Shown one piece after another: positions 51,391 through 63,232 of a stretch of DNA of 64,000 nt. Numbering within the stretch: the stretch's first letter is position 1; each line of letters opens with the position of its first letter. Made by a program: the position numbers and the translations under genes. The DNA is from Aestuariivirga litoralis (GTDB taxonomy: Bacteria > Pseudomonadota > Alphaproteobacteria > Rhizobiales > Aestuariivirgaceae): NCBI RefSeq assembly GCF_015714715.1, contig NZ_WAHS01000001.1, positions 2,057,001 through 2,121,000 on the forward strand, read 5' to 3'. The notes below the pieces were generated by a model. It saw nothing but the letters and a program-made list of their open reading frames with translations, ran no database searches and was not told the origin of the DNA.

Positions 51391-53550
51391 TTATGCGTCG
51401 CTCTCGGCATTGGCTTCAGCCGGGGCTTCGCCGCCGGCCTTCTTGGTGAGGTCTTCACCGGTGGCCTGATCGACAGCCTTCATCGAAAGCTTGATCTTGC
51501 CGCGGTTGTCGAAGCCCATGAGCTTGACCTTGACCAGATCGCCTTCCTTCACAACGTCCGACACCTTGTTGACACGGTGCGAGGCGAGTTCGGACACATG
51601 GATGAGACCGTCCTTGGCGCCGAAGAAGTTCACGAAAGCACCGAAGTCCATGATCTTGACGACCTTGCCTTCATAGATTTCGCCGACTTCCGGCTCAGAG
51701 ACGATGCCCTTGATCCACTTCAAGGCAGCGGTGATCGCTGCACCCGAAGACGAAGCCACCTTGATGGTGCCGTCGTCCTGGATGTCGACCTTGGCGCCGG
51801 TCTTTTCCACGATTTCGCGGATGACCTTGCCGCCGGTGCCAATCACTTCACGGATCTTGTCGGTGGGGATCTTGATGGTTTCGATGCGCGGCGCATGCTC
51901 GCCAAGGCCCGGACGGGCCTTTTCGAGGGCTTCTGACATCTTGGTCAGGATGTGCAAACGGCCATCCTTGGCCTGCCACAGAGCAACCTTCATGATCTCT
52001 TCGGTGATACCGGTGATCTTGATGTCCATCTGCAGCGAGGTGATGCCTTCAGACGTGCCGGCCACCTTGAAGTCCATGTCGCCCAGGTGATCTTCATCAC
52101 CCAGGATGTCGGACAGAACGGCAAAGCGCTCGCCTTCCTTGATCAGGCCCATGGCGATACCCGCCACCGGAGCCTTCAGCGGAACGCCAGCATCCATCAA
52201 TGCGAGCGAAGCGCCGCAGACGGAAGCCATCGAGGACGAACCATTCGACTCGGTGATCTCGGAGACCACGCGGATCGTGTAGGGGAACTGATCCTTCGGC
52301 GGCAGCATCGGATGGATGGCACGCCAGGCGAGCTTGCCATGGCCGATTTCGCGGCGGCCGGTGGCACCCATGCGGCCCACTTCACCCACCGAGTAGGGAG
52401 GGAAGTTGTAATGCAGAAGGAAAGTTTCCTTGTACATGCCGTCGAGGCTGTCGACATATTGTTCATCTTCACCGGTGCCGAGCGTGGTCACGACCAGCGC
52501 CTGGGTTTCACCGCGGGTGAACAGGGCCGAGCCGTGGGTGCGCGGCAGGACAGAAGCTTCAGCAACGATGGCGCGAACCGTTTTGGTGTCACGGCCGTCG
52601 ATACGCAGGCCGGTATCAAGGATCGAGTTGCGGACGATGTCCTTCTCGAGATGCTTGAAGGCTTCGCCAACCTTTTGCTCGGTCGGGGCCTTGGCGTCTT
52701 CCTTGTTGACCAGAGCGGCCTTCACGGCATCCTTGGTCTTGGCAACGGCGTCCTGGCGGTCTTCCTTCTTGGCGATGGAATAGGCAGCGCGCAGGTCCTT
52801 CTCGGCGTTCTTCTTCACGGCCTTGAAGAGGGTTTCTTCATCCGGAGGGGTGAAATCGCGCGGGCTGCGGGCAGAGCGTTCTGCCATGCGGATGATGGCT
52901 TCGATCACCGGCTGGAAGCCAGCATGACCGAACATCACGGCGCCGAGCATGATTTCTTCCGAAAGCTCCTTGGCTTCCGATTCAACCATCAGCACGGCGT
53001 CCTGGGTACCGGCCACCACGAGATCCAGGGTCGATTCCTTCATCTGTTCCTGGGTGGGGTTCAGCACGTATTCGCCATTGATCATGCCGACGCGGGCTGC
53101 ACCGACCGGGCCCATGAAGGGAATGCCGGAGAGGGTGAGCGCTGCGGACGAGCCCACAAGGGCCACGATGTCCGAGTCATTTTCAAGGTCGTAGGAAATG
53201 GTGGTGGCGATCACCTGGGTTTCCACGCGGAAACCTTCCGGGAAAAGCGGGCGGATTGGGCGGTCGATCAGGCGGGAAACCAGGGTTTCCTTTTCAGTCG
53301 GGCGGCCCTCACGCTTGAAATAACCACCAGGGATCTTGCCGGCGGCATAGGTCTTTTCCTGGTAGTTCACGGTGAGCGGGAAAAAGTCGATGCCGGGCTT
53401 TTCAGCGCGGGCGGCAACGGCGGTGGAGAGAACGGTGGTTTCACCGTAGGTGGCGAGAACCGCACCGTCGGCCTGACGAGCCACGCGGCCCGTTTCGAGG
53501 CGAAGTGTACGGCCGCCCCATTGGATTTCTTCAACGTCAATGTTGAACAT
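51391..53550 (-). CDS. pnp: Polyribonucleotide nucleotidyltransferase (PNPase)
   Basis: A 719-residue 3'-5' phosphorolytic exoribonuclease, part of the RNA degradosome. Two RNase PH domains (about residues 10-145 and 315-460) flank an alpha-helical domain. The KH domain is seen in [19 protein letters not shown], and the S1 domain in [19 protein letters not shown]. Catalytic residues in [20 protein letters not shown] and [12 protein letters not shown] are intact. I chose ATG 53550 ([14 protein letters not shown]), with AAGGAAAAG upstream; longer in-frame starts run through the rpsO-pnp spacer. It follows rpsO after a terminator-like hairpin. Confidence 0.97.
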
Positions 53551-53715
53551 GTTTTCTTTTCCTTTGTCCTGCGCTGCCGCTTTGTCACCGAGCCTGTGGG
53601 CAGCATCCCCTTTGGACAAATCGTTCACGGCCCCATTGCCGCTTTCCGAAGTCGGGGACGCGGGCAGCAATCCGGTGTCTGCCCGCTCGTATATTAGTTT
53701 CGTCGCATCTGACGA

Positions 53716-53743
53716 TTTTGGCTTTTCTTGCGAAAAGCCAAAA
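53716..53743 (-). terminator. Terminator-like hairpin between rpsO and pnp
   Basis: A perfect 12-bp stem, TTTTGGCTTTTC (53716-53727) with GAAAAGCCAAAA (53732-53743), loop of 4 nt, starts 4 bp after the rpsO stop on the minus strand and ends in T-rich sequence. The position equals the rpsO t1 attenuator of E. coli. The remaining 165 bp (53551-53715) are the pnp leader, where PNPase autocontrol acts in other bacteria. Confidence 0.8.
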
Positions 53744-53747
53744 CGCT

Positions 53748-54017
53748 TTAGCGGCGGATTTCGAGGCGCTTGATCAGGGTCTGATAGCGCGCGTCATCCT
53801 TGCTCTTCAGATAGTCGAGCAGCGAACGGCGGGCAGCAACCATCTTCAAAAGGCCACGGCGGGAATGGTTATCCTTCTTGTGGGTCTTGAAATGGTCGGT
53901 CAGATAATTGATGCGTTCCGTGAGGATCGCGACCTGAACTTCAGGCGAACCGGTGTCACCGGTCTTGGTTGCGTATTCTTTGACAAGCGCAACTTTGCGC
54001 TCTGCAGTCATCGTCAT
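53748..54017 (-). CDS. rpsO: 30S ribosomal protein S15
   Basis: An 89-residue protein that binds 16S rRNA early in 30S assembly. [20 protein letters not shown] at the start, then [40 protein letters not shown] and a final KRLEIRR are canonical. I chose ATG 54017, with GGAG 8 bp upstream, giving the usual length; an upstream in-frame start adds six residues. It begins 21 bp after truB. Confidence 0.98.
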
Positions 54018-54038
54018 AGTTTCTACTCCGGACATCGG

Positions 54039-54959
54039 TTAAAGATTGAAAAGTCTCTTGATTTTCAATGCGCCCTGGGAGATTTCGCCTAATCCGACGA
54101 GGTCTGTGCCTGAGCGCACCAAAACCGCCGCCTCGCTCACGGGAGCATTTGCTCCACGCAACAGGACCTTTTGGCCCTGTCTCAGTCTGGCGGCATCATT
54201 TTCCATAACGGCCAGTGCCGGGATGCCGTCCAGCACGGTCTCAATGGGAAACAAGGCGCCTTGCAGCGCCTCTTGGCCCGGCATATGGCTCATTTCCTCC
54301 AGCTTTTCCAGCGAAATCATCTGGTTTTCCGTGAGCCCGCCGACTTGGGTGCGGCGCAAAGCGGCGACGTGACCATAGCAGCCGAGGGTGCGCCCGATAT
54401 CACGCGCCAAGCTCCTGATATAAGTGCCTTTTCCGCAGACGATTTCAAAATCAGCAAAATCCGCGGTGGCTTCGTTGAGTTTCAATTCCTCAATGAAAAC
54501 CGGGCGTTCCACCATCACAGGAGCTTCCCCGGCGCGGGCCAGGTCATAAGCGCGCTCACCGTCGATCTTGATGGCCGAAAAGGCGGGGGGAGCCTGCATG
54601 ATTTCGCCGGTGAACCGAGGCAAAATGGAAGCAATTTGGAGCTCATTGGGACGGTTTGGGGAGGTGGCCGTAGCTGTTCCCTCGAGGTCGTCTGTCGTTG
54701 TCTCAGAGCCCCAGGCCACGCGCACCCGGTAAATCTTGCGGCCATCCATCGCCCAGTTCACCGTCTTGGTGGCCTCGCCCAGGGCGATCGGCAGCAAGCC
54801 GGTGGCCAGCGGATCAAGCGTGCCGCCATGGCCGGCCTTGTCGGCGTTGAACAGCCAGCGCACTTTGCCCAGCGCCTGGGTTGAGGTCATGCCATAAGGC
54901 TTGTCGAGGGCGAGCCAGCCATTGATCTTGAGGCGCGGTTTTTTGGTTGGGCTTGTCAT
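54039..54959 (-). CDS. truB: tRNA pseudouridine(55) synthase TruB
   Basis: A 306-residue enzyme making the universal pseudouridine 55 in the T-loop. The catalytic Asp is in [21 protein letters not shown], the [17 protein letters not shown]-terminus is canonical, and RAYDLARAGEAP plus a C-terminal PUA-like part (about residues 240-305) complete it. It is the first gene of truB-rpsO-pnp. In most relatives rbfA lies immediately upstream; here rbfA is 6.8 kb away. A diverged copy of its 5' end lies at 58822-59013. Confidence 0.96.
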   Translation of the reverse strand: MTSPTKKPRLKINGWLALDKPYGMTSTQALGKVRWLFNADKAGHGGTLDPLATGLLPIALGEATKTVNWAMDGRKIYRVRVAWGSETTTDDLEGTATATSPNRPNELQIASILPRFTGEIMQAPPAFSAIKIDGERAYDLARAGEAPVMVERPVFIEELKLNEATADFADFEIVCGKGTYIRSLARDIGRTLGCYGHVAALRRTQVGGLTENQMISLEKLEEMSHMPGQEALQGALFPIETVLDGIPALAVMENDAARLRQGQKVLLRGANAPVSEAAVLVRSGTDLVGLGEISQGALKIKRLFNL

Positions 54960-55047
54960 GGTTGCGGCGGGTGATAGCCTTGAACGATGCGCCTTGCCAT
55001 TGTTTCCGACTTCCACGGATTTTGCCGGCCCTTGAGGAGGTGATTGC
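54790..55047. repeat. Direct repeat, left copy (truB 5' end plus phosphoesterase 5' stub)
   Basis: About 258 bp matching 58843-59102 at roughly 90% identity by eye in the truB part (about 13 differences in 147 bp before the start codon) and less in the 26-bp spacer. It holds the first 57 codons or so of intact truB, the divergent spacer ending GATAGCCTTGAACG, and the first 20 codons of a metallophosphoesterase gene. The two copies flank a 3.8-kb segment. Confidence 0.85.
54987..55047 (+). pseudogene. Truncated, frameshifted metallophosphoesterase 5' stub
   Basis: Reads MRLAIVSDFHG, then loses the frame by a 1-bp deletion just after the HG codons compared with the intact gene at 59041, and stops at TGA about 17-18 codons in. 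The homology ends at about 55047; the following 100 bp up to the histidine kinase stop hold no gene that I can recognise. Confidence 0.8.
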
Positions 55048-55150
55048 GGCTTCCCACTTGGACTTTGGTGACAGCATTGCAGTTGCTTATCCCACCATTG
55101 CCAGCAACTTAAGAGATTCGCTGCCCGGACCGCACTGTTCAATGTGTAAA

Positions 55151-56182
55151 CTAGTGCAATCTGGCTTCGGATTGGTGGTGTTCAACCGACACTCGGGTAC
55201 CACCAACACCCGTTGCCACGACAACTTCGGCCTCTAACTGCTGAGCCAAAGCTTTCACAATCGACGTTCCCAACCCTCCGGTTCGGTGATCTGTAACGCC
55301 AGACATGCCGCAACCATTGTCGGACACGGCCAAGGTCCAATCCTCGCCCGAAACCTTGTACTCAACTTTGATTTCACCCAAATCCGCAGGCGGCGGAAAA
55401 GCGTGTTTGAGCGCGTTGATGGCGAGTTCTGTGACAACTAACCCCATGCCGACCGCGCGTTCGGATACCACAGCACCTGGATCGGCAAATACACGTATTG
55501 TAATTGATCGTCGGTCACCAATCATGGATGCCGCTAAACTCTCACAAAGTCGTGTCAGGTATTCGCCGATCTCAACCTTCTCGCCACTGCCGGATGCTGT
55601 GAGCTGCTGTTGCAGGGCTGCAACCGACATAACGCGCCGATGGGCATCCTCCAGATGGCCGCGTGTCTCATCTGACGTCACTTTGCGCGCCTTCAGAAGG
55701 AGAATGCTGGCGATGATCTGAAGGCTATTGGCAACACGATGGCTCATCTCGGCCATCAGTGTATCTTTCCGATCACTCAAGGCCTTGAGTAGTCGTTCGT
55801 TATTACGACGCTCTGTAATATCCTCGATGGCGAGCAACAATGTCGAATTGGTATCGTTCTTGTAAAAGACTTTTCGAGCATTGAGCAACATCACTCGCGG
55901 GCCGAGGCGCGCAAAATTCTGCTCCAGCACAAAATCGTCCATCACATCATGTTCGGGAATGACGCGCTCAAGGAGATGTCGCAGCGCTTCGCTTTGCCAC
56001 TCACCATTTCCGAGATCATATATTCGATGGCCGATTGTGTCTGATGGCGTGGTCAGGAATTTCGAATAGAATGATCGGCTGGCGGCTACCACCTTCAGGT
56101 TTTTATCCAGTACCAAAAGAGCGTCGCGTACGGTGTCGACCATGGCGTGAGCCAAGGTTTTCCCATCTTCCATCGAATCCAT
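55151..56182 (-). CDS. PAS-domain sensor histidine kinase (HisKA_2 type)
   Basis: A 343-residue soluble kinase. An N-terminal PAS-like domain (about residues 8-125: DTVRDALLVLDKNLKVVAAS to TLLLAIEDITERR) is followed by the HisKA_2 phosphoacceptor EMSHRVANSLQIIASIL (His) and a HATPase domain with N-box ELAINALKHAFP, G1 box DNGCGM and a GGLGTSIVKAL motif. This class signals in alphaproteobacterial stress and light pathways. No response regulator or membrane segment is present, so the signal is probably cytosolic. It is in the inserted cassette, apparently its own transcript. Confidence 0.88.
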   Translation of the reverse strand: MDSMEDGKTLAHAMVDTVRDALLVLDKNLKVVAASRSFYSKFLTTPSDTIGHRIYDLGNGEWQSEALRHLLERVIPEHDVMDDFVLEQNFARLGPRVMLLNARKVFYKNDTNSTLLLAIEDITERRNNERLLKALSDRKDTLMAEMSHRVANSLQIIASILLLKARKVTSDETRGHLEDAHRRVMSVAALQQQLTASGSGEKVEIGEYLTRLCESLAASMIGDRRSITIRVFADPGAVVSERAVGMGLVVTELAINALKHAFPPPADLGEIKVEYKVSGEDWTLAVSDNGCGMSGVTDHRTGGLGTSIVKALAQQLEAEVVVATGVGGTRVSVEHHQSEARLH

Positions 56183-56294
56183 TGATACCTGCTGAACACC
56201 TTCCCAAGGAAGGAAAGAACAACACTGCGCCCCATTTATGTGAATAGCAAAGACTAAACGGATGAACGCAGTCGAAATAGATGTTCTGTATGAC

Positions 56295-56690
56295 TTAATG
56301 CAAAATCATGGCGTCCACGGGTTTAAAGAATTTGCGCGCATAGGCGACTATTTCCCCGTCGCTGGGGTGGTCGACGGTCTCGACGCCGAGAATTTTGGCC
56401 TTGAGTTTAGGGCTGTATTTTTCAAGGTATGTCATGAATTCTGTCTTGGCGTTGCCTGGGCCGATTACAAGAACCTCACCTGACTCGGAAACAGCCAAAG
56501 CGATTTCATTCATAAAGGCAGGTTCCATAACTTCGTGCCCAGACCCTATTGTATTTGCCTTGTGGTGAAGGTGCATTGCGGTGTCTTGCGCATGCACACT
56601 TTGACTATCTTCTTCCCTTGCATTGAAGTGAAAGACCTTGGCCTGGCGGTGGTCGAGCCAGATGACAGCGTGGAAATGTGAACTGCTCAT
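56295..56690 (-). CDS. eRF1-domain-like 'translational machinery protein'
   Basis: A 131-residue protein of the family annotated as translational machinery protein, resembling one domain of eRF1/Pelota. Signature stretches are HAVIWLDHRQAKVFHFN at the start, HHKANTIGSGHEVME in the middle and AKILGVETVDHPSDGEIVAYARKFF at the end. Function is unproven; it is common in stress gene clusters of proteobacteria with zinc alcohol dehydrogenases, as here. GGAGGA lies 7 bp upstream of its ATG. It is 17 bp downstream of the dehydrogenase, so the two form an operon. Confidence 0.82.
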   Translation of the reverse strand: MSSSHFHAVIWLDHRQAKVFHFNAREEDSQSVHAQDTAMHLHHKANTIGSGHEVMEPAFMNEIALAVSESGEVLVIGPGNAKTEFMTYLEKYSPKLKAKILGVETVDHPSDGEIVAYARKFFKPVDAMILH

Positions 56691-56707
56691 TTTTGAATCC
56701 TCCTGGA

Positions 56708-57748
56708 TTACTTAAATTCGATGATGACTTTGAGTGCCTTGGTTTTTGCCGCGTTGCCAAACGCCTCATAGGCATCCAGAATTTTGTCGAATTTGAAATG
56801 GTGGGTGATCAGTTTCCTGGGTTCGATCTTGCGGGAAGTGACAGTTTTGAGAAGCATGGGAATCGTGGCCGTATCCACCAAACGCGTGGTAATGGATATG
56901 TTGCGATCCCAGAGTTTTTCCAGATGGAGGTCCACCTTCTTCCCGTGAACTCCAATGTTGGCGATGGTGCCTCCCGGTGCGATGATGGCCTGACAAAGTT
57001 CAAATGTCGCCGGAATGCCCACAGCTTCGATGGCTGTGTCGACGCCGCGATTTGCCGTGAGCTTCATCAGTGCGTCTAACGCCTGGCCATCGGCACTATT
57101 GATCGTGTCCGTGGCGCCAAATTGCTTGGCTACTTCGAGGCGATTGTCATCCAGGTCGATCATGATGATCTGGGCCGGCGAGTAGAACTGCGCCGTCAGC
57201 AGCGTTGCAAGGCCAATGGGCCCAGCACCCACAATGGCAATTGAACTTCCCGGCTGGACCTTGCCATTCAGCACACCGCATTCAAAGCCTGTTGGTAGAA
57301 TGTCACTCAGCATCACCAGGGCCTCTTCGTCCGCACCCTTCTGGATGGGATAAAGGCTGGTATCGGCATGTGGAATGCGAACATATTCGGCCTGGGTCCC
57401 ATCAATGGAATTGCCGAGGATCCATCCACCGGTGGTGCAATGGGAATACATCTGCTTGCGGCAATATTCACATTTTCCACACGCGCTCACGCAAGAGATG
57501 ATGACGTGGTCGCCTGGTTTGAAGGCGGTGACAGCCGGTCCGGTCTTGTCAACGATGCCAACGCCTTCGTGGCCCAGGATGCGGCCTGGCTGGCAGGTGG
57601 CCACGTCGCCTTTGAGAATGTGAAGGTCGGTGCCGCAGATCGTCGTCTTGGTCATCTTGATGATGGCATCGGTGGGATCGAGAATGACAGGATCTGGACA
57701 TTCCTTCACGGCCTTGTCCGACGGGCCAATATAGACGAGAGCTTTCAT
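56708..57748 (-). CDS. Zinc-dependent alcohol dehydrogenase family protein
   Basis: A 346-residue medium-chain dehydrogenase. Catalytic zinc ligands are Cys and His in TTICGTDLHILKGD and GRILGHEGVG; structural zinc cysteines are in SCVSACGKCEYCRKQMYSHC; the NAD(P) motif is AIVGAGPIGLATLL. ATG 57748 with GGAAG upstream gives the canonical MKALVYIGPSDKAV; the longer in-frame start is not family-like. Likely reduces or oxidises small alcohols or aldehydes under stress. First gene of the operon with the eRF1-like gene. Confidence 0.93.
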   Translation of the reverse strand: MKALVYIGPSDKAVKECPDPVILDPTDAIIKMTKTTICGTDLHILKGDVATCQPGRILGHEGVGIVDKTGPAVTAFKPGDHVIISCVSACGKCEYCRKQMYSHCTTGGWILGNSIDGTQAEYVRIPHADTSLYPIQKGADEEALVMLSDILPTGFECGVLNGKVQPGSSIAIVGAGPIGLATLLTAQFYSPAQIIMIDLDDNRLEVAKQFGATDTINSADGQALDALMKLTANRGVDTAIEAVGIPATFELCQAIIAPGGTIANIGVHGKKVDLHLEKLWDRNISITTRLVDTATIPMLLKTVTSRKIEPRKLITHHFKFDKILDAYEAFGNAAKTKALKVIIEFK

Positions 57749-57787
57749 GCGGCGCTTCCTCTGTTGTGAATTGAAGATGAAGCGCCA

Positions 57788-57818
57788 GGCAGAACGAACG
57801 GTGTTCGACACGTCTGCC
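57788..57818. promoter_or_regulatory. Nested inverted repeats upstream of the alcohol dehydrogenase
   Basis: GGCAGA (57788-57793) and TCTGCC (57813-57818) enclose a perfect palindrome CGAACGGTGTTCG (57795-57807). It lies 40-70 bp upstream of the ADH start codon, a normal operator position. The regulator is unknown. Confidence 0.45.
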
Positions 57819-57889
57819 AGAACAAGGGTGGCTACGACGAGTTTGTTCCCTGACTTTAAAACTTAATTTGCTGATTTGGGCCAAGCGAC

Positions 57890-57915
57890 GGAACAATGAG
57901 CCGCTAGGTATTGTT
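57890..57915 (+). promoter_or_regulatory. Possible EcfG-type general stress promoter for the BON gene
   Basis: GGAAC (57890-57894) followed by a 17-bp spacer and TGTT (57912-57915). The alphaproteobacterial general stress sigma factor EcfG recognises GGAAC-N16/17-CGTT, so there is one mismatch. It is oriented toward the BON-domain gene, which starts 101 bp further on. Confidence 0.35.
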
Positions 57916-58016
57916 GGATGCGTGATGCGTCCTCAGTCGCCATGAAGAGGCAAGGGCATTGAGACAAGCCAGGTTTAGCCTAGCTTTCCCAGATAATTCG
58001 GCGACAGGAGATGATC

Positions 58017-58667
58017 ATGTCCGACAAAAACCTTCAAGACAATGTGATGGCGGAACTGAATTGGGAGCCGCGTGTGAACGCAGCCCATATTGGCGTGACC
58101 GCCAAGCAGGGCGTCGTCAGTTTGACTGGCCATGTCGAAACCTATTCTGAAAAGAATGCGGCAGAAGCAGCAGCTTGGCGTGTGAAAGGCGTTAAAGGCA
58201 TTGCTCAGGAAATCGACGTCCGCCTGCCCAATTCGGTGAAACATACCGATGAACAGATCGCGGAAGCCGCGCTCAGCCGGCTGTCATGGGATGTGACCGT
58301 TCCCAAAAATTCGGCTTCTGTGAAAGTCCAGGAAGGTTGGCTTACCTTGACGGGCGAAGTTGAATGGCAGTACGAGAAAAACGACGCTGAATATGATGTG
58401 GCACGCCTTCCGGGTGTCACCGGCGTTTCCAACCAGATCACTCTCAGGCCACGGGTTGACACCACCGATATCAGCAACGGCATCCGTACCGCACTTCACC
58501 GCTCTTGGTTTTTTGATCCAGACACAATCCGAGTCAAAGCCGATGGCGGGAAAGTCACTCTGAGCGGAACGGCCAATTCCTGGCACGATCGCGAGGTGGC
58601 GGGCAGCACAGCTTGGGCCGCGAAAGGCGCAACTTCTGTCCAAAACGACATCACGGTTGCCTTCTAA
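58017..58667 (+). CDS. Triple BON-domain protein
   Basis: A 216-residue protein with three BON repeats (about residues 6-70, 77-145 and 152-215): VMAELNWEPRVNAAHIGVTA, ALSRLSWDVTVPKNSASVKV and IRTALHRSWFFDPDTIRVKA each start a unit, each ending in a VxLxGxV-type strand. OsmY-like BON proteins are usually exported, but no signal peptide is seen here. Such cytosolic triple-BON proteins are often stress-induced. ATG 58017 has GGAG upstream. Part of the inserted cassette; divergent from ADH. Confidence 0.88.
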   Translation: MSDKNLQDNVMAELNWEPRVNAAHIGVTAKQGVVSLTGHVETYSEKNAAEAAAWRVKGVKGIAQEIDVRLPNSVKHTDEQIAEAALSRLSWDVTVPKNSASVKVQEGWLTLTGEVEWQYEKNDAEYDVARLPGVTGVSNQITLRPRVDTTDISNGIRTALHRSWFFDPDTIRVKADGGKVTLSGTANSWHDREVAGSTAWAAKGATSVQNDITVAF

Positions 58668-58675
58668 GTAGATTT

Positions 58676-58702
58676 GCCGCCGGTTCTCATAGGGTCGGCG
58701 GC
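58676..58702 (+). terminator. Hairpin after BON gene, possible terminator
   Basis: GCCGCCG (58676-58682) pairs with CGGCGGC (58696-58702) around a 13-nt loop, 9 bp after the BON gene stop. Only short T clusters follow, so terminator strength is uncertain. Confidence 0.4.
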
Positions 58703-58821
58703 ATTACTTTGGCGCTCTGATGTCAATAGGACCGACGATTGTGGCTAGCGAATCTCGGGTGAGCGCGAACGTGGTTCCACCACGTCTTATGAACTGAACC
58801 CTTACGGCACATACGGACGTG

Positions 58822-59013
58822 TTAGGTTTTCCTGCCGTCCATCGCCAGCAAGCCGATAGCCAGGGGATCAAGCGTGCCGCCATGGCTGGCCTTGTCGGCA
58901 TTGAACAGCCAGCGCACTTTACCCTGCGCTTGCGTCGAGGTCATGCCGTAAGGCTTGTCGAGGGCGAACCAGCCGTTGATCTTCAGGCGCTGTTTTTTGG
59001 TGGGGCTTGTCAT
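58822..59013 (-). pseudogene. Truncated truB 5' fragment
   Basis: A 63-codon frame starting [20 protein letters not shown], closely matching the N-terminus of the intact truB at 54959. After LDPLAIGLL it lacks 39 bp (13 codons in frame) present in truB, resumes with AMDGRK, then stops at TAA. It lacks most of the enzyme and cannot be active. It faces away from the intact phosphoesterase gene at 59041, recreating the original divergent junction. Confidence 0.88.
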
Positions 59014-59102
59014 GATTGGGCCGGATGATAGCCTTGAACGATGCGCATCGCCATTGTTTCCGACATTCACGGCAACTTGCCCGCCCTTGAGGCGGTGATT
59101 GC
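58843..59102. repeat. Direct repeat, right copy (truB 5' stub plus phosphoesterase 5' end)
   Basis: Counterpart of 54790-55047. Here the phosphoesterase side is intact and the truB side is broken. Orientation is the same as in the left copy, so the pair forms a diverged direct repeat flanking the stress cassette. Confidence 0.85.
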
Positions 59103-59787
59103 CAATATCAACGCGGCCAAGCCTGATCTGGTGATCAATCTGGGCGACCTCGTTTCCGGGCCGTTGTGGCCGAAGGAGACGCTGCAGCTTTTGCAGAGCC
59201 TCAACTGGCCGACGATCAGAGGCAATTGCGACCGCGCGGTGGGTGCGCATCCGGCGGAGAAGCTTGGCGCATCGGATCGATTTGCTTATGACCGGCTATC
59301 TGTGGACGAACGCCAGTGGCTGCGCGACTTGCCCCTCACGCATCAGGTTTCAAAACGGGTCTTCGCCTGTCATGGCACGCCGGATGATGATGACACTTAT
59401 TTGCTGGAGCGGGTGGAAGGCCAATATCTGGTGACGGCGCCACGCGAAATCATTCTGCAAAAGCTCGGCAAGATCACCACGCCGCTGGTGCTGTGTGGGC
59501 ACAGCCATATTCCGCAATTCATCCAAGTGGCGGACGGGCGCTTCGTGTTGAATGTGGGTAGCGTGGGCTTGCCCGCGCATGATGCGCGAAACGTGGCGGA
59601 GCATGTGTATTTTTCCGAGTCCGGCACACCGCATGCGAAGTATGCCCTCGTGACGGTGCGGGATTCAGGTGGGTTCAATGTGCAGCAGCGTTGCGTGGAT
59701 TATGATTTCAACGCGGCCGTTGCGAAGGCGGCGGAAGCCGGACGTGCCGACTGGGTACAGGGATTGAAAACAGGTGCGATGACTTAG
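59041..59787 (+). CDS. Metallophosphoesterase family protein (YfcE/ApaH-like)
   Basis: A 248-residue calcineurin-like phosphoesterase. Metal ligands are in [12 protein letters not shown] (Asp, His), INLGDLVSG (Asp), TIRGNCDR (Asn), [11 protein letters not shown] (His) and [10 protein letters not shown] (two His). All are intact. The fold suits phosphodiesters or protein phosphates; substrate unknown. It is divergent from a truB fragment, and its 5' end is duplicated at 54987. Converges with the LysR gene with 1 bp between them. Confidence 0.9.
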
Positions 59788-59788
59788 G

Positions 59789-60673
59789 TCATGCCCGCAT
59801 CGCTGCAATCACCGCACGCAGGCCGGCGGAGAGATATTTGCGGGTGGGATAATAGAGATAGAGCCAATCCTCTGGCGGGCACCAGGACTCGAGACAGCTG
59901 ACCAAAGTGCCATCCTTCAGATCGCGGACCGCACGGCTTTCCCACACGAAGGCGAGGCCCATTCCGGCGCGGGCCACCTGCACCAGCAATTCATGATCAT
60001 CGGAGGCAAATGGCCCGCTGGGTTGGAACTCTACCGCCTTGCCATCCTTCTCGAACACCCAGCTATAGCGCACGCCGCTGGGATAAAGATTCTGCATACA
60101 GATATGGTTTTTGAGATCTGCCGGCATGCGCGGCTTGCCGTGCTTTTTGAAATAGTCTTTTGAACCCACCAATACGAAACGCAGGCGGGGTTTGATTTTC
60201 ACTGCCGTCATGCCATCGCGCAGGCTTTCGCCCAGTCTAATGCCGGCGTCAAAACCATCCTCCGCGATATCAACCAGCCGGTCGGTGGCTATGACTTCGA
60301 GGGTGAGATTAGGGTTGGCCTTGATAAGCGGCCCAAGCACCGGACCGATCACGAAGGGCGCAATCGAACTTGGAACATTGATGCGCACTTTGCCGAATGG
60401 CGTATCGCGAAACTGATTAAGCCCATCCAGTGCTGAACCCATGTCCAGCAAGGCCGGCGAAAGCCGCGCCACCAGCACGCTGCCCGCATCCGTCAGCGAG
60501 ACGCTGCGCGTGGTGCGATTGAGCAGGCGCAAGCCGATGCGCGCCTCCAGATTGCTCACCGCGTGGCTGATGGCAGAAGCCGTAACACCGCGCTCCTCAG
60601 CCCCACGGCGGAAATTCTTGTGGCGCGCCACGGCATCGAAGGCCGCAAGTTCGGAAAGATCGGTCACCCGCAT
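59789..60673 (-). CDS. LysR family transcriptional regulator
   Basis: A 294-residue regulator. The N-terminal winged HTH (AFDAVARHKNFRRGAEERGV then TASAISHAVSNLEARIGLRL and LLNRTTRSVSLTDAG) is typical of the CrgA/DsdC-like subgroup, followed by a substrate-binding domain (about residues 90-294). It is divergent from a VOC gene, with an 18-bp near-palindrome between them, so it probably regulates that gene. The inducer is unknown. Confidence 0.92.
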   Translation of the reverse strand: MRVTDLSELAAFDAVARHKNFRRGAEERGVTASAISHAVSNLEARIGLRLLNRTTRSVSLTDAGSVLVARLSPALLDMGSALDGLNQFRDTPFGKVRINVPSSIAPFVIGPVLGPLIKANPNLTLEVIATDRLVDIAEDGFDAGIRLGESLRDGMTAVKIKPRLRFVLVGSKDYFKKHGKPRMPADLKNHICMQNLYPSGVRYSWVFEKDGKAVEFQPSGPFASDDHELLVQVARAGMGLAFVWESRAVRDLKDGTLVSCLESWCPPEDWLYLYYPTRKYLSAGLRAVIAAMRA

Positions 60674-60686
60674 TACTGAACAAGAC

Positions 60687-60704
60687 TCATCATTTAAACG
60701 ATGA
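60687..60704. promoter_or_regulatory. 18-bp near-palindrome in the LysR/VOC divergent region
   Basis: TCATCATTTAAACGATGA is palindromic at 8 of 9 base pairs. It lies 14 bp upstream of the LysR start and about 85 bp upstream of the VOC start, the usual place for a LysR binding site. A TGCGCAAT direct repeat also occurs twice in the remaining spacer. Confidence 0.55.
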
Positions 60705-60788
60705 CAAGCAATCTAATCAGAACAATCACAATGCGCAATAAGTCTCCTCACGCACTGATCATCACTGCGCAATTCAAGGAGAAATATC

Positions 60789-61250
60789 ATGGCCGATTTC
60801 ATTCCGCCCGCCAAAAACACCACATCCGATTTTGCCGATATGCGCGGCCACCATGTGGCCATCCGCACGCCGGATTATCCTTCCGCCAAGGCCTGGTATG
60901 TCGAGAAGTTGGATTTCCGCGTGGTGGCAGAATGGCCTTATGCAGATGAGCAGTTGGCCTATCTGGCGCCCGCCACTGACGATCATTTCTATATCGAAAT
61001 TCTCGGCGGCGGCGAGCCTGCTCCGGTGGAAGCGCGGCCCTATACAGATCTGGGCGACAGCCTGAAATATCGCGGGCTGCACCATTTCTGCCTGAACGTC
61101 ACAAGCGTTGACGAGACCGTGGCCAAGCTGCGCGCGCGTGGTGTGAAGATTGTGACCGAGCCCTTCATCCTGCCGGTGATCAGCCGCAAGCTTGCTTTCT
61201 TCTGCGATCCGTTCGGAAACCTGATTGAGCTGGCGGAAGTTCTGGCCTGA
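60789..61250 (+). CDS. VOC family protein
   Basis: A 153-residue vicinal oxygen chelate protein: the first module starts RGHHVAIRTPDYPSAKAWYV (His), the second GLHHFCLNVTSVDETVAKLR (His), and FFCDPFGNLIELAEVL carries the C-terminal Glu ligand. Glyoxalase I-, fosfomycin resistance- or dioxygenase-like; the substrate cannot be told. AAGGAG ribosome site 8 bp upstream. Divergent from LysR, which probably controls it. Confidence 0.87.
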   Translation: MADFIPPAKNTTSDFADMRGHHVAIRTPDYPSAKAWYVEKLDFRVVAEWPYADEQLAYLAPATDDHFYIEILGGGEPAPVEARPYTDLGDSLKYRGLHHFCLNVTSVDETVAKLRARGVKIVTEPFILPVISRKLAFFCDPFGNLIELAEVLA

Positions 61251-61257
61251 TCCCAGA

Positions 61258-61286
61258 CGCCCTTCTTCCCCTGTGGAAGAAGGGCG
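61258..61286. terminator. 12-bp hairpin between convergent VOC and secreted-protein genes
   Basis: CGCCCTTCTTCC (61258-61269) pairs perfectly with GGAAGAAGGGCG (61275-61286) around a 5-nt loop, in the 43 bp between two convergent stops. There is no T-run on either side, so it may be a transcript-end stabiliser or a weak shared terminator. Confidence 0.55.
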
Positions 61287-61293
61287 AACTCAA

Positions 61294-61737
61294 TCACTCG
61301 CCGCATTCAAATGGAATCTCATTGTTCCATTTGTGCTTGCCGGAGGTGATGACGATTTTTAGATGTTGGCAGGTTACGTCGCGTAGCAAGAAGGCTTTGC
61401 TTGAATCTGCTTCGCCAACGAAGGTGAGATAGAAGTTCTTCAGTGCGTAGACCTGCTTGCCATCCTTGTCGGTGACTTTGATCGACGGTCTGTCCGGCTT
61501 TTTCGCCTGCGCGATTGTTTTGAAATGTGCCACCAGCAGCACGTCATCGGCGCGCGCACCGTCACTGGCGATAACGGTATTCCACAATGCGGGCTTGGTG
61601 GTGATCAGGTCGTCCGACAGCTTTCCGTCTCGGCTCGAAATCAGGAAGGCTTCCAGCTTGTCGAGAGTGACTTGTTCTGCCTGCGCTGCGCCTGAGAGTG
61701 TTGCCATCAAGATCATTGAGAACAACAGGCGGCGCAT
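61294..61737 (-). CDS. Uncharacterised exported protein
   Basis: A 147-residue protein with a clear signal peptide (RRLLFSMILMATLSGAAQA, cleavage after AQA). The mature part is about 125 residues with two cysteines (in DVTCQHLKIV and at the C-terminal PFECGE) that may form a disulfide. No known family is recognised. ATG 61737 begins 2 bp after the rbfA stop; a TTG that overlaps the stop is possible. It appears co-transcribed with rbfA, which is unusual since truB normally holds this place. Confidence 0.72.
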   Translation of the reverse strand: MRRLLFSMILMATLSGAAQAEQVTLDKLEAFLISSRDGKLSDDLITTKPALWNTVIASDGARADDVLLVAHFKTIAQAKKPDRPSIKVTDKDGKQVYALKNFYLTFVGEADSSKAFLLRDVTCQHLKIVITSGKHKWNNEIPFECGE

Positions 61738-61739
61738 GC

Positions 61740-62135
61740 TCAATCCTTCTTGTCGAGATCCCGCTGCACTTCGGGTTTGTGCAGGATGTCGTCGATCTTG
61801 TTGGCGTAATCGAGCGAGGTGTCGATGCGGAAACGGATTTCCGGGGTGAAGCGCATTTCAAGCTTGGGCGCCAAAAGTCCGCGGATGAATTTGCGGTGCT
61901 TGTTCAGCACGTCGAGCGCCTGTTTTTCCTTGCCTACAATCAAACTGCGCATGAAACATGTGGCAATTTTCAGATCGGGCGAGAGCTGCACTTCGGTAAT
62001 CGTCGGGGCGAGCCGGTCAATCTCCGGATCGCCCACATCGCCACGCTGGATGACTTGCGCCAGCGCATGGCGGATCAATTCGCCGGCGCGAAGCATTCTT
62101 TGGGATGGTGCGGAACCTGCCATAGATTGTGACAT
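61740..62135 (-). CDS. rbfA: 30S ribosome-binding factor RbfA
   Basis: A 131-residue KH-like protein that helps mature the 5' end of 16S rRNA, needed in the cold. QRMLRAGELIRHALAQVIQR, VQLSPDLKIATCFMRSL and KFIRGLLAPKLEMRFTPEIR, FRIDTSLDYANKIDDIL are canonical. ATG 62135 is chosen. infB is not upstream in this window, and truB is not directly downstream, so the usual infB-rbfA-truB order is broken on both sides. Confidence 0.95.
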   Translation of the reverse strand: MSQSMAGSAPSQRMLRAGELIRHALAQVIQRGDVGDPEIDRLAPTITEVQLSPDLKIATCFMRSLIVGKEKQALDVLNKHRKFIRGLLAPKLEMRFTPEIRFRIDTSLDYANKIDDILHKPEVQRDLDKKD

Positions 62136-62170
62136 AGTGAAAATGGAGCCGCACTTCAACCCGGCGTCGA

Positions 62171-62198
62171 TTGACAGGTTTAACGATTGAACTAGCGT
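62171..62198 (+). promoter_or_regulatory. Possible promoter of the Rieske oxygenase gene
   Basis: TTGACA (62171-62176), 16-bp spacer, TAGCGT (62193-62198), about 30 bp upstream of the gene start. The -35 is perfect but the -10 matches poorly. Confidence 0.35.
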
Positions 62199-62227
62199 GG
62201 GCGCCCAGCCTTTGCCAGGAAGCCAAC

Positions 62228-63232
62228 ATGCTCAATCTTGATGCCCGCTATTATGTTTCACCGGACACGTTGTTGAAGGAGCGCAGCTCGATCTTTGCGC
62301 GCAGCTGGCAGCATCTGGGGGCGGCCTCGCAAGTGGCTGAGCCCAATGCCTATCTGGCAGCGGATATTGCGGGCTACAAGATTTTCGTTTTGCGCGGCAA
62401 GGATGGCGTGTTGCGCGCCTTCAAGAATATGTGCCGGCATCGCGGCGCGCAGCTGCTGGAAGATGGCAATGGCAAATGCAACGGGGTGCGCTGCCCCTAT
62501 CACCAGTGGCTTTACAACGACAAGGGCGACTTGTTGAGCGCACCTTGGTTTGGCGACAAGCCGCCCATCGTGCTGGAAGACTGGCCGCTGGAGGCCATCC
62601 ATGTGGATGTATGGCGCGGGCTGCTGTTTGCGGCGCTTGATCCGGAGATGAGCCTGATCGAACAGCTGGGTGCGCTGCCGGAAGAATTGGCTGATGAGCC
62701 GATCGAGACCTACATGCTCGACAGGCAGGACAAGGTGGAGTTTGACGCCAATTGGAAAGTCTATACCGACAATTTCGTTGAGGGCTATCACATCCCCGGT
62801 ATTCACCCGGGCTTCTTTGCGGCGATTGATTTCAAGCAGTTTGCAACGACGGCGCATAAAGGCTTTGTGCGGATGACCTGCCCGCCGCGCGAGGACTTGT
62901 TTTATCGCGGCAAGTGGCTGTGGATGTGGCCGAACTGGACGCTGAGCCTGTTTGAAGGCGGGATGAATACATCGCGCATCAATCCGCTGTCAGTGGGGCG
63001 CACCGAGCAGCTCTACAATTTCTATTTCGATGATCTGACACCCGCCACCAAGGCGGCGCGCGACAAGACGATCGCCGGGAACCTGGCGGTGGTGCAGGAA
63101 GATTGCGATGTGTGCGCCGGCACCCACAAGAACTACGAGACGGGGATGTTCACCACCGGGCCGCTCTCGTCACGGCATGAAGAGGGCGTGCATTATTTCC
63201 AGCAAAGGGTGGCCGGGGCGCTGGGGATCTGA
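62228..63232 (+). CDS. Rieske non-heme iron aromatic ring-hydroxylating oxygenase, alpha subunit
   Basis: A 334-residue oxygenase. The Rieske [2Fe-2S] cluster ligands are MCRHRGAQLL and RCPYHQWLY (Cys-X-His and Cys-X2-His). The mononuclear iron site is DNFVEGYHIPGIHPGFF (two His), with a late Asp in VQEDCDVCAGTHKNYET. Family members dioxygenate aromatics or demethylate N-methyl compounds such as stachydrine or carnitine. It needs a reductase, which is not adjacent. ATG 62228 gives the usual N-terminus. Shorter than typical (380-450), lacking some C-terminal sequence. Confidence 0.9.
   Translation: MLNLDARYYVSPDTLLKERSSIFARSWQHLGAASQVAEPNAYLAADIAGYKIFVLRGKDGVLRAFKNMCRHRGAQLLEDGNGKCNGVRCPYHQWLYNDKGDLLSAPWFGDKPPIVLEDWPLEAIHVDVWRGLLFAALDPEMSLIEQLGALPEELADEPIETYMLDRQDKVEFDANWKVYTDNFVEGYHIPGIHPGFFAAIDFKQFATTAHKGFVRMTCPPREDLFYRGKWLWMWPNWTLSLFEGGMNTSRINPLSVGRTEQLYNFYFDDLTPATKAARDKTIAGNLAVVQEDCDVCAGTHKNYETGMFTTGPLSSRHEEGVHYFQQRVAGALGI

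Follow-up and report, generated by a model that had tools for sequence, protein, structure and literature searches.

A low-G+C gene cassette between two diverged copies of the truB/phosphoesterase junction in Aestuariivirga litoralis, probably gained by homologous recombination with DNA of a sister lineage

In many cases, small sets of genes gained between core genes include no recombinase, and the way in which they entered is often unknown. How, then, did a cassette of four genes come to lie in front of truB in Aestuariivirga litoralis, between two diverged copies of the junction of truB with a metallophosphoesterase (MPE) gene? The locus lies in a stretch of 64,000 nucleotides (contig NZ_WAHS01000001.1, positions 2,057,001 to 2,121,000; hereafter the window, to whose first letter all coordinates refer) of a 3.3-Mb genome in four contigs (GCF_015714715.1). 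Our preferred answer, to which we assign a probability of roughly 0.6, is that homologous recombination of the RecA type brought in the cassette, through a single crossover of DNA from a sister lineage with the resident junction. The following parts of the locus bear on it.

54042-54959, minus strand: intact truB, tRNA pseudouridine-55 synthase (Pfam TruB_N, E 9e-48; TIGR00431 above cut-off)
54787-55047, plus strand: left copy of the truB/MPE junction repeat
54987-55047, plus strand: broken 5' stub of the MPE gene, lacking one base at codon 11
55048-58815, no strand assigned: inserted cassette, low in G+C and absent from the truB neighbourhoods fetched for 35 relatives
58816-59013, minus strand: broken 5' stub of truB, consisting of codons 1-57, a 39-bp in-frame deletion and a short degraded stretch that contains a TAA stop
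58841-59102, plus strand: right copy of the junction repeat, paired with the left copy in the same orientation
59041-59787, plus strand: intact MPE gene (Pfam Metallophos, E 3e-20), with a relative between truB and rbfA in genome G008

The two copies of the junction repeat align with 232 of 262 columns identical and one gap, a difference of about 11%, which bears out the diverged direct repeat that a preliminary description of this DNA had noticed. This similarity is far above chance expectation, and no third site came up when the entire genome was searched (E 1e-133 and 2.5e-92 for the two copies). It extends over codons 1-57 of truB (154/171 identical), the 27-bp spacer between the start codons of the two genes, which are divergent with their starts back to back (23/27), and the start of the MPE gene (53/62 columns). 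The copies form direct repeats on both sides of the insert; truB is whole at the left end, where an MPE stub adjoins its start, and the MPE gene is whole at the right end next to a truB stub, as had been described. The stubs themselves turned out somewhat different from what was first seen. The right truB stub exists and runs beyond the limit given for it, since a protein search yields a truB match over the whole of 58816-59013 with one TAA inside; past the 39-bp in-frame gap the stub reads DGRKT*HVRM where truB reads DGRKIYRVRV (P 0.037 for this piece alone). The left MPE stub is truncated, as had been stated, and is in addition frameshifted by its 1-base deletion; beyond 55047 there is one in-frame match (P 0.008-0.02), with competing alignments. 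In the right truB stub, three changes (L30Q, G43S, and T53I) fall at positions conserved in the aligned relatives, and these changes, the deletion and the stop fit a brief period as a stub. A composite transposon is not what these repeats look like: they are coding pieces of truB and of the MPE gene without insertion sequence (IS) ends, and no transposase family occurs among 18 proteins (8 + 10, pnp and rbfA not included) encoded between about 46.4 and 63.9 kb that were scanned against Pfam. Recombinase families are equally absent from these 18 proteins, in agreement with the earlier statement that no integrase or transposase is present.

The divergence of the two truB copies tells where they may have spent their separate history. 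Between the right stub and the left truB, the number of synonymous substitutions per site (dS) is 0.34 and that of nonsynonymous substitutions (dN) 0.040. Codon models were fitted to 56 codons, codon 57 at the deletion edge being dropped, with nine sequences (left, right, and seven relatives) in the main models and six in the simulation test. The right-stub branch has a dN/dS ratio (omega) of 0.095 against a background of 0.072, and fixing omega at 1 on this branch gives a log likelihood (lnL) of -812.65 vs -807.24 when it is free (9 taxa). With six taxa, the likelihood ratio statistic for omega = 1 is 14.6, which none of 107 simulated neutral data sets reaches, and neutrality with the left and right branches forced to be equal also fits worse (lnL -813.80 vs -808.81). 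These models supersede an earlier unpolarised count test, in which 11 of 18 differences were synonymous vs 6.1 expected (P 0.009). By codon-model evidence, the right truB stub appears to have diverged as a working truB; the codon-model test, the simulations and the equal-branch test all reject the idea that an old duplication decayed neutrally in place. Changes polarised site by site are in excess on the right copy (13 vs 0 with G020 and 9 vs 3 with G013); simple decay was considered as their cause and set aside, as the codon model fits a long, constrained branch instead.

When the tree placement of the copies was compared, as the preliminary description had proposed, the right copy came out as the sister of the left, five alternative placements being 6.4-8.6 lnL units worse. 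Moreover, the dS of 0.34 between the copies over this stretch is smaller than the dS of 0.88 to G020 over the whole of truB. Taken together, constraint, sister placement and the smaller dS suggest that, most likely, each copy evolved as a functional gene in a lineage of its own, the two lineages being sisters, for the greater part of the time since they separated, and that the copies were brought together only recently. Of the two origins first offered for the divergence, another lineage or an old event, the codon test thus rejects old divergence in place, and the other lineage, as a sister, gains support. The same results weigh on a duplication of the junction within one lineage, with the cargo landing between the copies and the stubs decaying in place. 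That the copies are sisters, that the left branch is short and that L30Q, G43S, and T53I hit conserved positions would all agree with such a duplication; however, neutrality of the right stub is rejected, also with equal branches and by the comparison with 107 simulated neutral data sets, and a second truB would have had to be kept working for long. Neither a second truB nor a piece of one was found in the other genomes of the genus (the gene of G021 is split into two adjacent matches), a truB paralogue that stayed functional within this lineage is unsupported, and we regard this explanation as quite unlikely.

The cassette itself contains the following features, given with the G+C content at third codon positions (GC3) where they are genes.

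55151-56182, minus strand: PAS-HisKA_2-HATPase histidine kinase (Pfam; GC3 0.558; relatives at 64-65% in G027 and G024)
56295-56690, minus strand: 131-residue protein, weakly pelota/eRF1-like (GC3 0.568; 75% relative in G033)
56708-57748, minus strand: zinc-dependent alcohol dehydrogenase (ADH_N, ADH_zinc_N; GC3 0.646; pieces at 73% and 87% on two contigs of G033)
58011-58667, plus strand: triple BON-domain protein (PF04972 in three stretches, E 3e-48; GC3 0.590; 71% relative in G033)
58675-58703, plus strand: terminator-like hairpin of 13 pairs behind the BON gene, from a consensus scan only

The composition of this cargo is foreign. The G+C content of 55048-58823 (3776 bases) is 0.528, compared with a mean of 0.580 (standard deviation, sd, 0.015) for the window, and none of 302 sliding windows of the same size across the 64 kb is equally low. 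GC3 is 0.56-0.65 in the four cargo genes vs 0.68-0.75 in truB, pnp, rbfA, and the MPE, LysR, and VOC genes, and the shift in composition coincides with the positions of the repeats. Pfam confirms the kinase, the zinc alcohol dehydrogenase and the triple-BON protein named in the preliminary description; its eRF1-like label is weak, as the 131-residue protein reaches pelota TIGR00111 at E 0.005, far under the cut-off, and has no Pfam match at E 0.001. On plasmids, six records of the eRF1-like gene were obtained, every one below 60% identity. On the Bradyrhizobium conjugative plasmid NZ_CP088289.1 (L169), a relative of this gene lies near a zinc alcohol dehydrogenase, a universal stress protein and a CBS-domain gene, a neighbourhood that resembles the company of genes in the cassette. 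Signals in the DNA are sparse: five terminator-like sites in the region do not exceed the shuffle mean of 5.3, four promoter-like sites compare with a shuffle mean of 2.3 (sd 1.3) and none lies within either repeat copy, ARAGORN detects no tRNA in the window, and Rfam at gathering thresholds reports nothing on 53500-62500.

In relatives, truB occurs without the cassette. Our genus sample comprised 37 genomes including the source, and truB was found in 35 of the 36 others (G012 being without a match); all 35 neighbourhoods were fetched, some of them shortened by contig ends. In the source genome truB, rpsO, and pnp stand in a row on the minus strand, with the cassette in front of truB, and the order of these three genes is retained in relatives. 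No cassette gene was detected in the 35 neighbourhoods at E 1e-6, and the entire truB-rbfA interval was covered in the 33 where rbfA is visible beside truB; of the other two, L108 ends near truB and L121 covers 6.3 kb in front of it with no match. Far from being shared by all relatives, the arrangement with its stubs is present in none of these 35. Gaps between truB and rbfA, approximate as they derive from tblastn ends, are at most 214 bp in 28 of the 33 relatives, and the five wider ones amount to about 0.65 kb (two genomes), 0.8 kb (G008, with the MPE gene inside), and 2.0-2.2 kb (two genomes). G008 possesses a single truB/MPE junction and no cassette (protein identity 57% for truB and 54-56% for MPE). 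In G033, which is among the nearest relatives in a core-gene tree, truB and rbfA are adjacent, while the BON, dehydrogenase and eRF1-like trio sits elsewhere in the same order, spread over two contigs that both break inside the dehydrogenase gene and that presumably adjoin. A kinase was not found beside the G033 trio, the nearest kinase relatives being those in G027 and G024, and the G033 gene neighbouring the trio was not found in the source genome. The comparison of gene order recommended at the outset has thus provided one relative with the junction alone and another with most of the cargo elsewhere. Among MPE relatives in named genomes (27 loci, flanks up to 8 kb), no flank contained a truB match.

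Other gains appear between truB and rbfA. In the source genome the interval measures 6.8 kb (54960-61739) and contains the cassette, the MPE gene, a LysR and a VOC gene and a small protein; in G013 and G021 it codes for a protein of 687 and 630 residues, respectively, and in G002 (L095) for two small open frames, which we take to resemble a toxin-antitoxin pair. Seen over the window and the relatives' loci L091, L095, L102, L104, and L106, the interval looks like a recurrent site of gain in the genus. In G021 (L104; G021:C57:64985-65947), truB itself yields two neighbouring matches whose query ranges overlap (7-168 and 164-307), which may reflect a small insertion in the gene. Around 54042-56182 of the window, truB-rpsO-pnp is immediately preceded by the kinase and dehydrogenase genes, encoded on the same strand, and not by rbfA; transcription of the three genes may therefore have been rewired.

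For gain by a single crossover, the incoming DNA would have consisted of the cargo and a fragment of the sister lineage's own truB/MPE junction. As a circle, or as a linear piece closed into a circle, it would have crossed over once with the resident junction and so duplicated the shared fragment around the cargo, leaving truB and the MPE gene both whole; next to either gene there would be the 27-bp spacer and then the truncated start of the other gene. Both genes would stay intact because the shared fragment contains both gene starts, and these preserved starts may explain why the outcome survived. We infer the single crossover, the circular form and the joint arrival of fragment and cargo; the recombination-driven gain of cargo suggested in the preliminary description is supported in part, by the cassette-free relatives, the foreign cargo and the copy from a sister lineage. 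More tentatively, and with somewhat more doubt than trust, we propose that end-trimmed DNA of a sister species, once circularised, entered here via a divergent two-gene junction of only 27 bp between start codons, and that such junctions, whose duplication spares both genes and the start region that they share, would be recurrent and survivable entry points requiring no enzyme of a mobile element. The mechanism as such is already known from the laboratory. A study in E. coli (PMC3240628) reports that 56 of 60 Lac- clones gave the polymerase chain reaction product of a duplication and that, in 14 clones sequenced, 109-950 bp of the homologous locus were duplicated; there, the authors interpret this as single crossovers with circles that had been trimmed and re-ligated, with part of the homologous fragment lost.

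Several points weigh against such a crossover here. A circle would need a junction fragment cut at both ends, and hence a second, illegitimate join. No donor genome and no relative with the junction at the DNA level was found among the matches listed: when 397 genomes from the order, source included, were searched with two candidates scored per genome, the listed matches outside the source ended within truB or just beyond it, at or before base 162 of the 261-base query, and among those listed only the source matched into the MPE part. A donor or a circular form of the element did not come up in the searches made. The left truB branch is far shorter than the right (0.13 vs 1.12, and 0.015 vs 0.128 in a nucleotide tree), with equality of the two not rejected (2 delta lnL 3.1). 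Over its 20 codons, compared by eye, the left MPE stub differs mostly by amino-acid changes, and so does not itself show the functional signature. Finally, judged by the rest of the gene, the 5' part of the left truB stands unusually close to relatives, with a median z of 1.41 (control -0.86 to 0.83).

The state of the left MPE stub is accounted for, as is the functional history of the right truB stub, if linear DNA had entered by homology-facilitated illegitimate recombination, with truB/MPE homology as the anchor and a chance join near MPE codon 20. All of the left copy would then be native, and the right copy would come from the donor at least across its truB part. Illegitimate events are described for competent bacteria in PMC3240628 and proposed for Vibrio in PMC5361080. 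According to the former, they generally delete recipient DNA of similar size, a usual and not invariable feature; here, instead, neither gene is damaged and a duplication of 262 bp is present. Also, of the 60 clones described there, 4 appeared to belong to the illegitimate type, against the 56 with a duplication. We consider this route unlikely.

As to which copy came in, the closeness to relatives, calculated with codons 1-7 and 59-69 left out, is as expected for the right copy (z 0.17, same control), and the left 5' part of truB may be the incoming sequence and the right stub the displaced native start. At synonymous third positions, left (1.59) and right (1.22) are both outside the control (-0.93 to 0.95); therefore, the closeness test does not settle which copy is native. 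After a single crossover, native sequence gives way to foreign sequence at the point of exchange on either side of the insert; a windowed scan of truB identity to relatives gave no clean breakpoint. A local drop of identity at codons 76-95, common to all three near relatives, was not used, since other windows vary as much.

The closeness of the left 5' part to relatives would also suit the remnant of an integrase-type island in the 5' end of truB, which would have supplied a new gene start and since lost its integrase. Islands in dusA or prfC leave a gene with an exchanged 5' end and a displaced 5' stub at the far side, a geometry matched here. Yet the 18 scanned proteins include no recombinase, and the duplicated block covers 262 bp over two genes, whereas the usual attachment-site core is far shorter. 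A limited literature search brought no report that we recognised of truB as an island site. Such a remnant seems to us very improbable, and the single crossover with DNA of a sister lineage remains our preferred explanation.

Two kinds of evidence survive together at this locus, the duplicated junction and its history of divergence, and codon statistics can therefore be used to test where the second copy came from. Many genomes could be screened likewise for a divergent start region that is present as two diverged direct repeats, with an intact gene on either outer side, to measure how often cargo enters by the junction route.

Among known systems, integrase islands at gene ends resemble this locus in having cargo between direct repeats and a stub at one end; they differ in that here no integrase was found, the repeat extends over two genes and the copies have diverged. 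The arrays of type VI secretion system immunity genes in Vibrio cholerae, for which PMC5361080 proposes homology-facilitated illegitimate recombination, are alike in that one stretch of homology brings in foreign genes and pieces of the displaced gene remain; there, the old effector is displaced, whereas here both neighbours of the insert are intact. Among the literature matches listed on mechanism and site, no report of this locus appeared. The Campbell-type integration of non-replicating circles, including trimmed and re-ligated linear DNA, described in PMC3240628 is unlike our case in that here the event is natural, the copies differ by about 11%, the site is a junction of divergent genes and the circle was not seen. 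In both, the shared fragment forms direct repeats around the incoming DNA without any integrase, and the locus is probably a natural example of a mechanism known from the laboratory.

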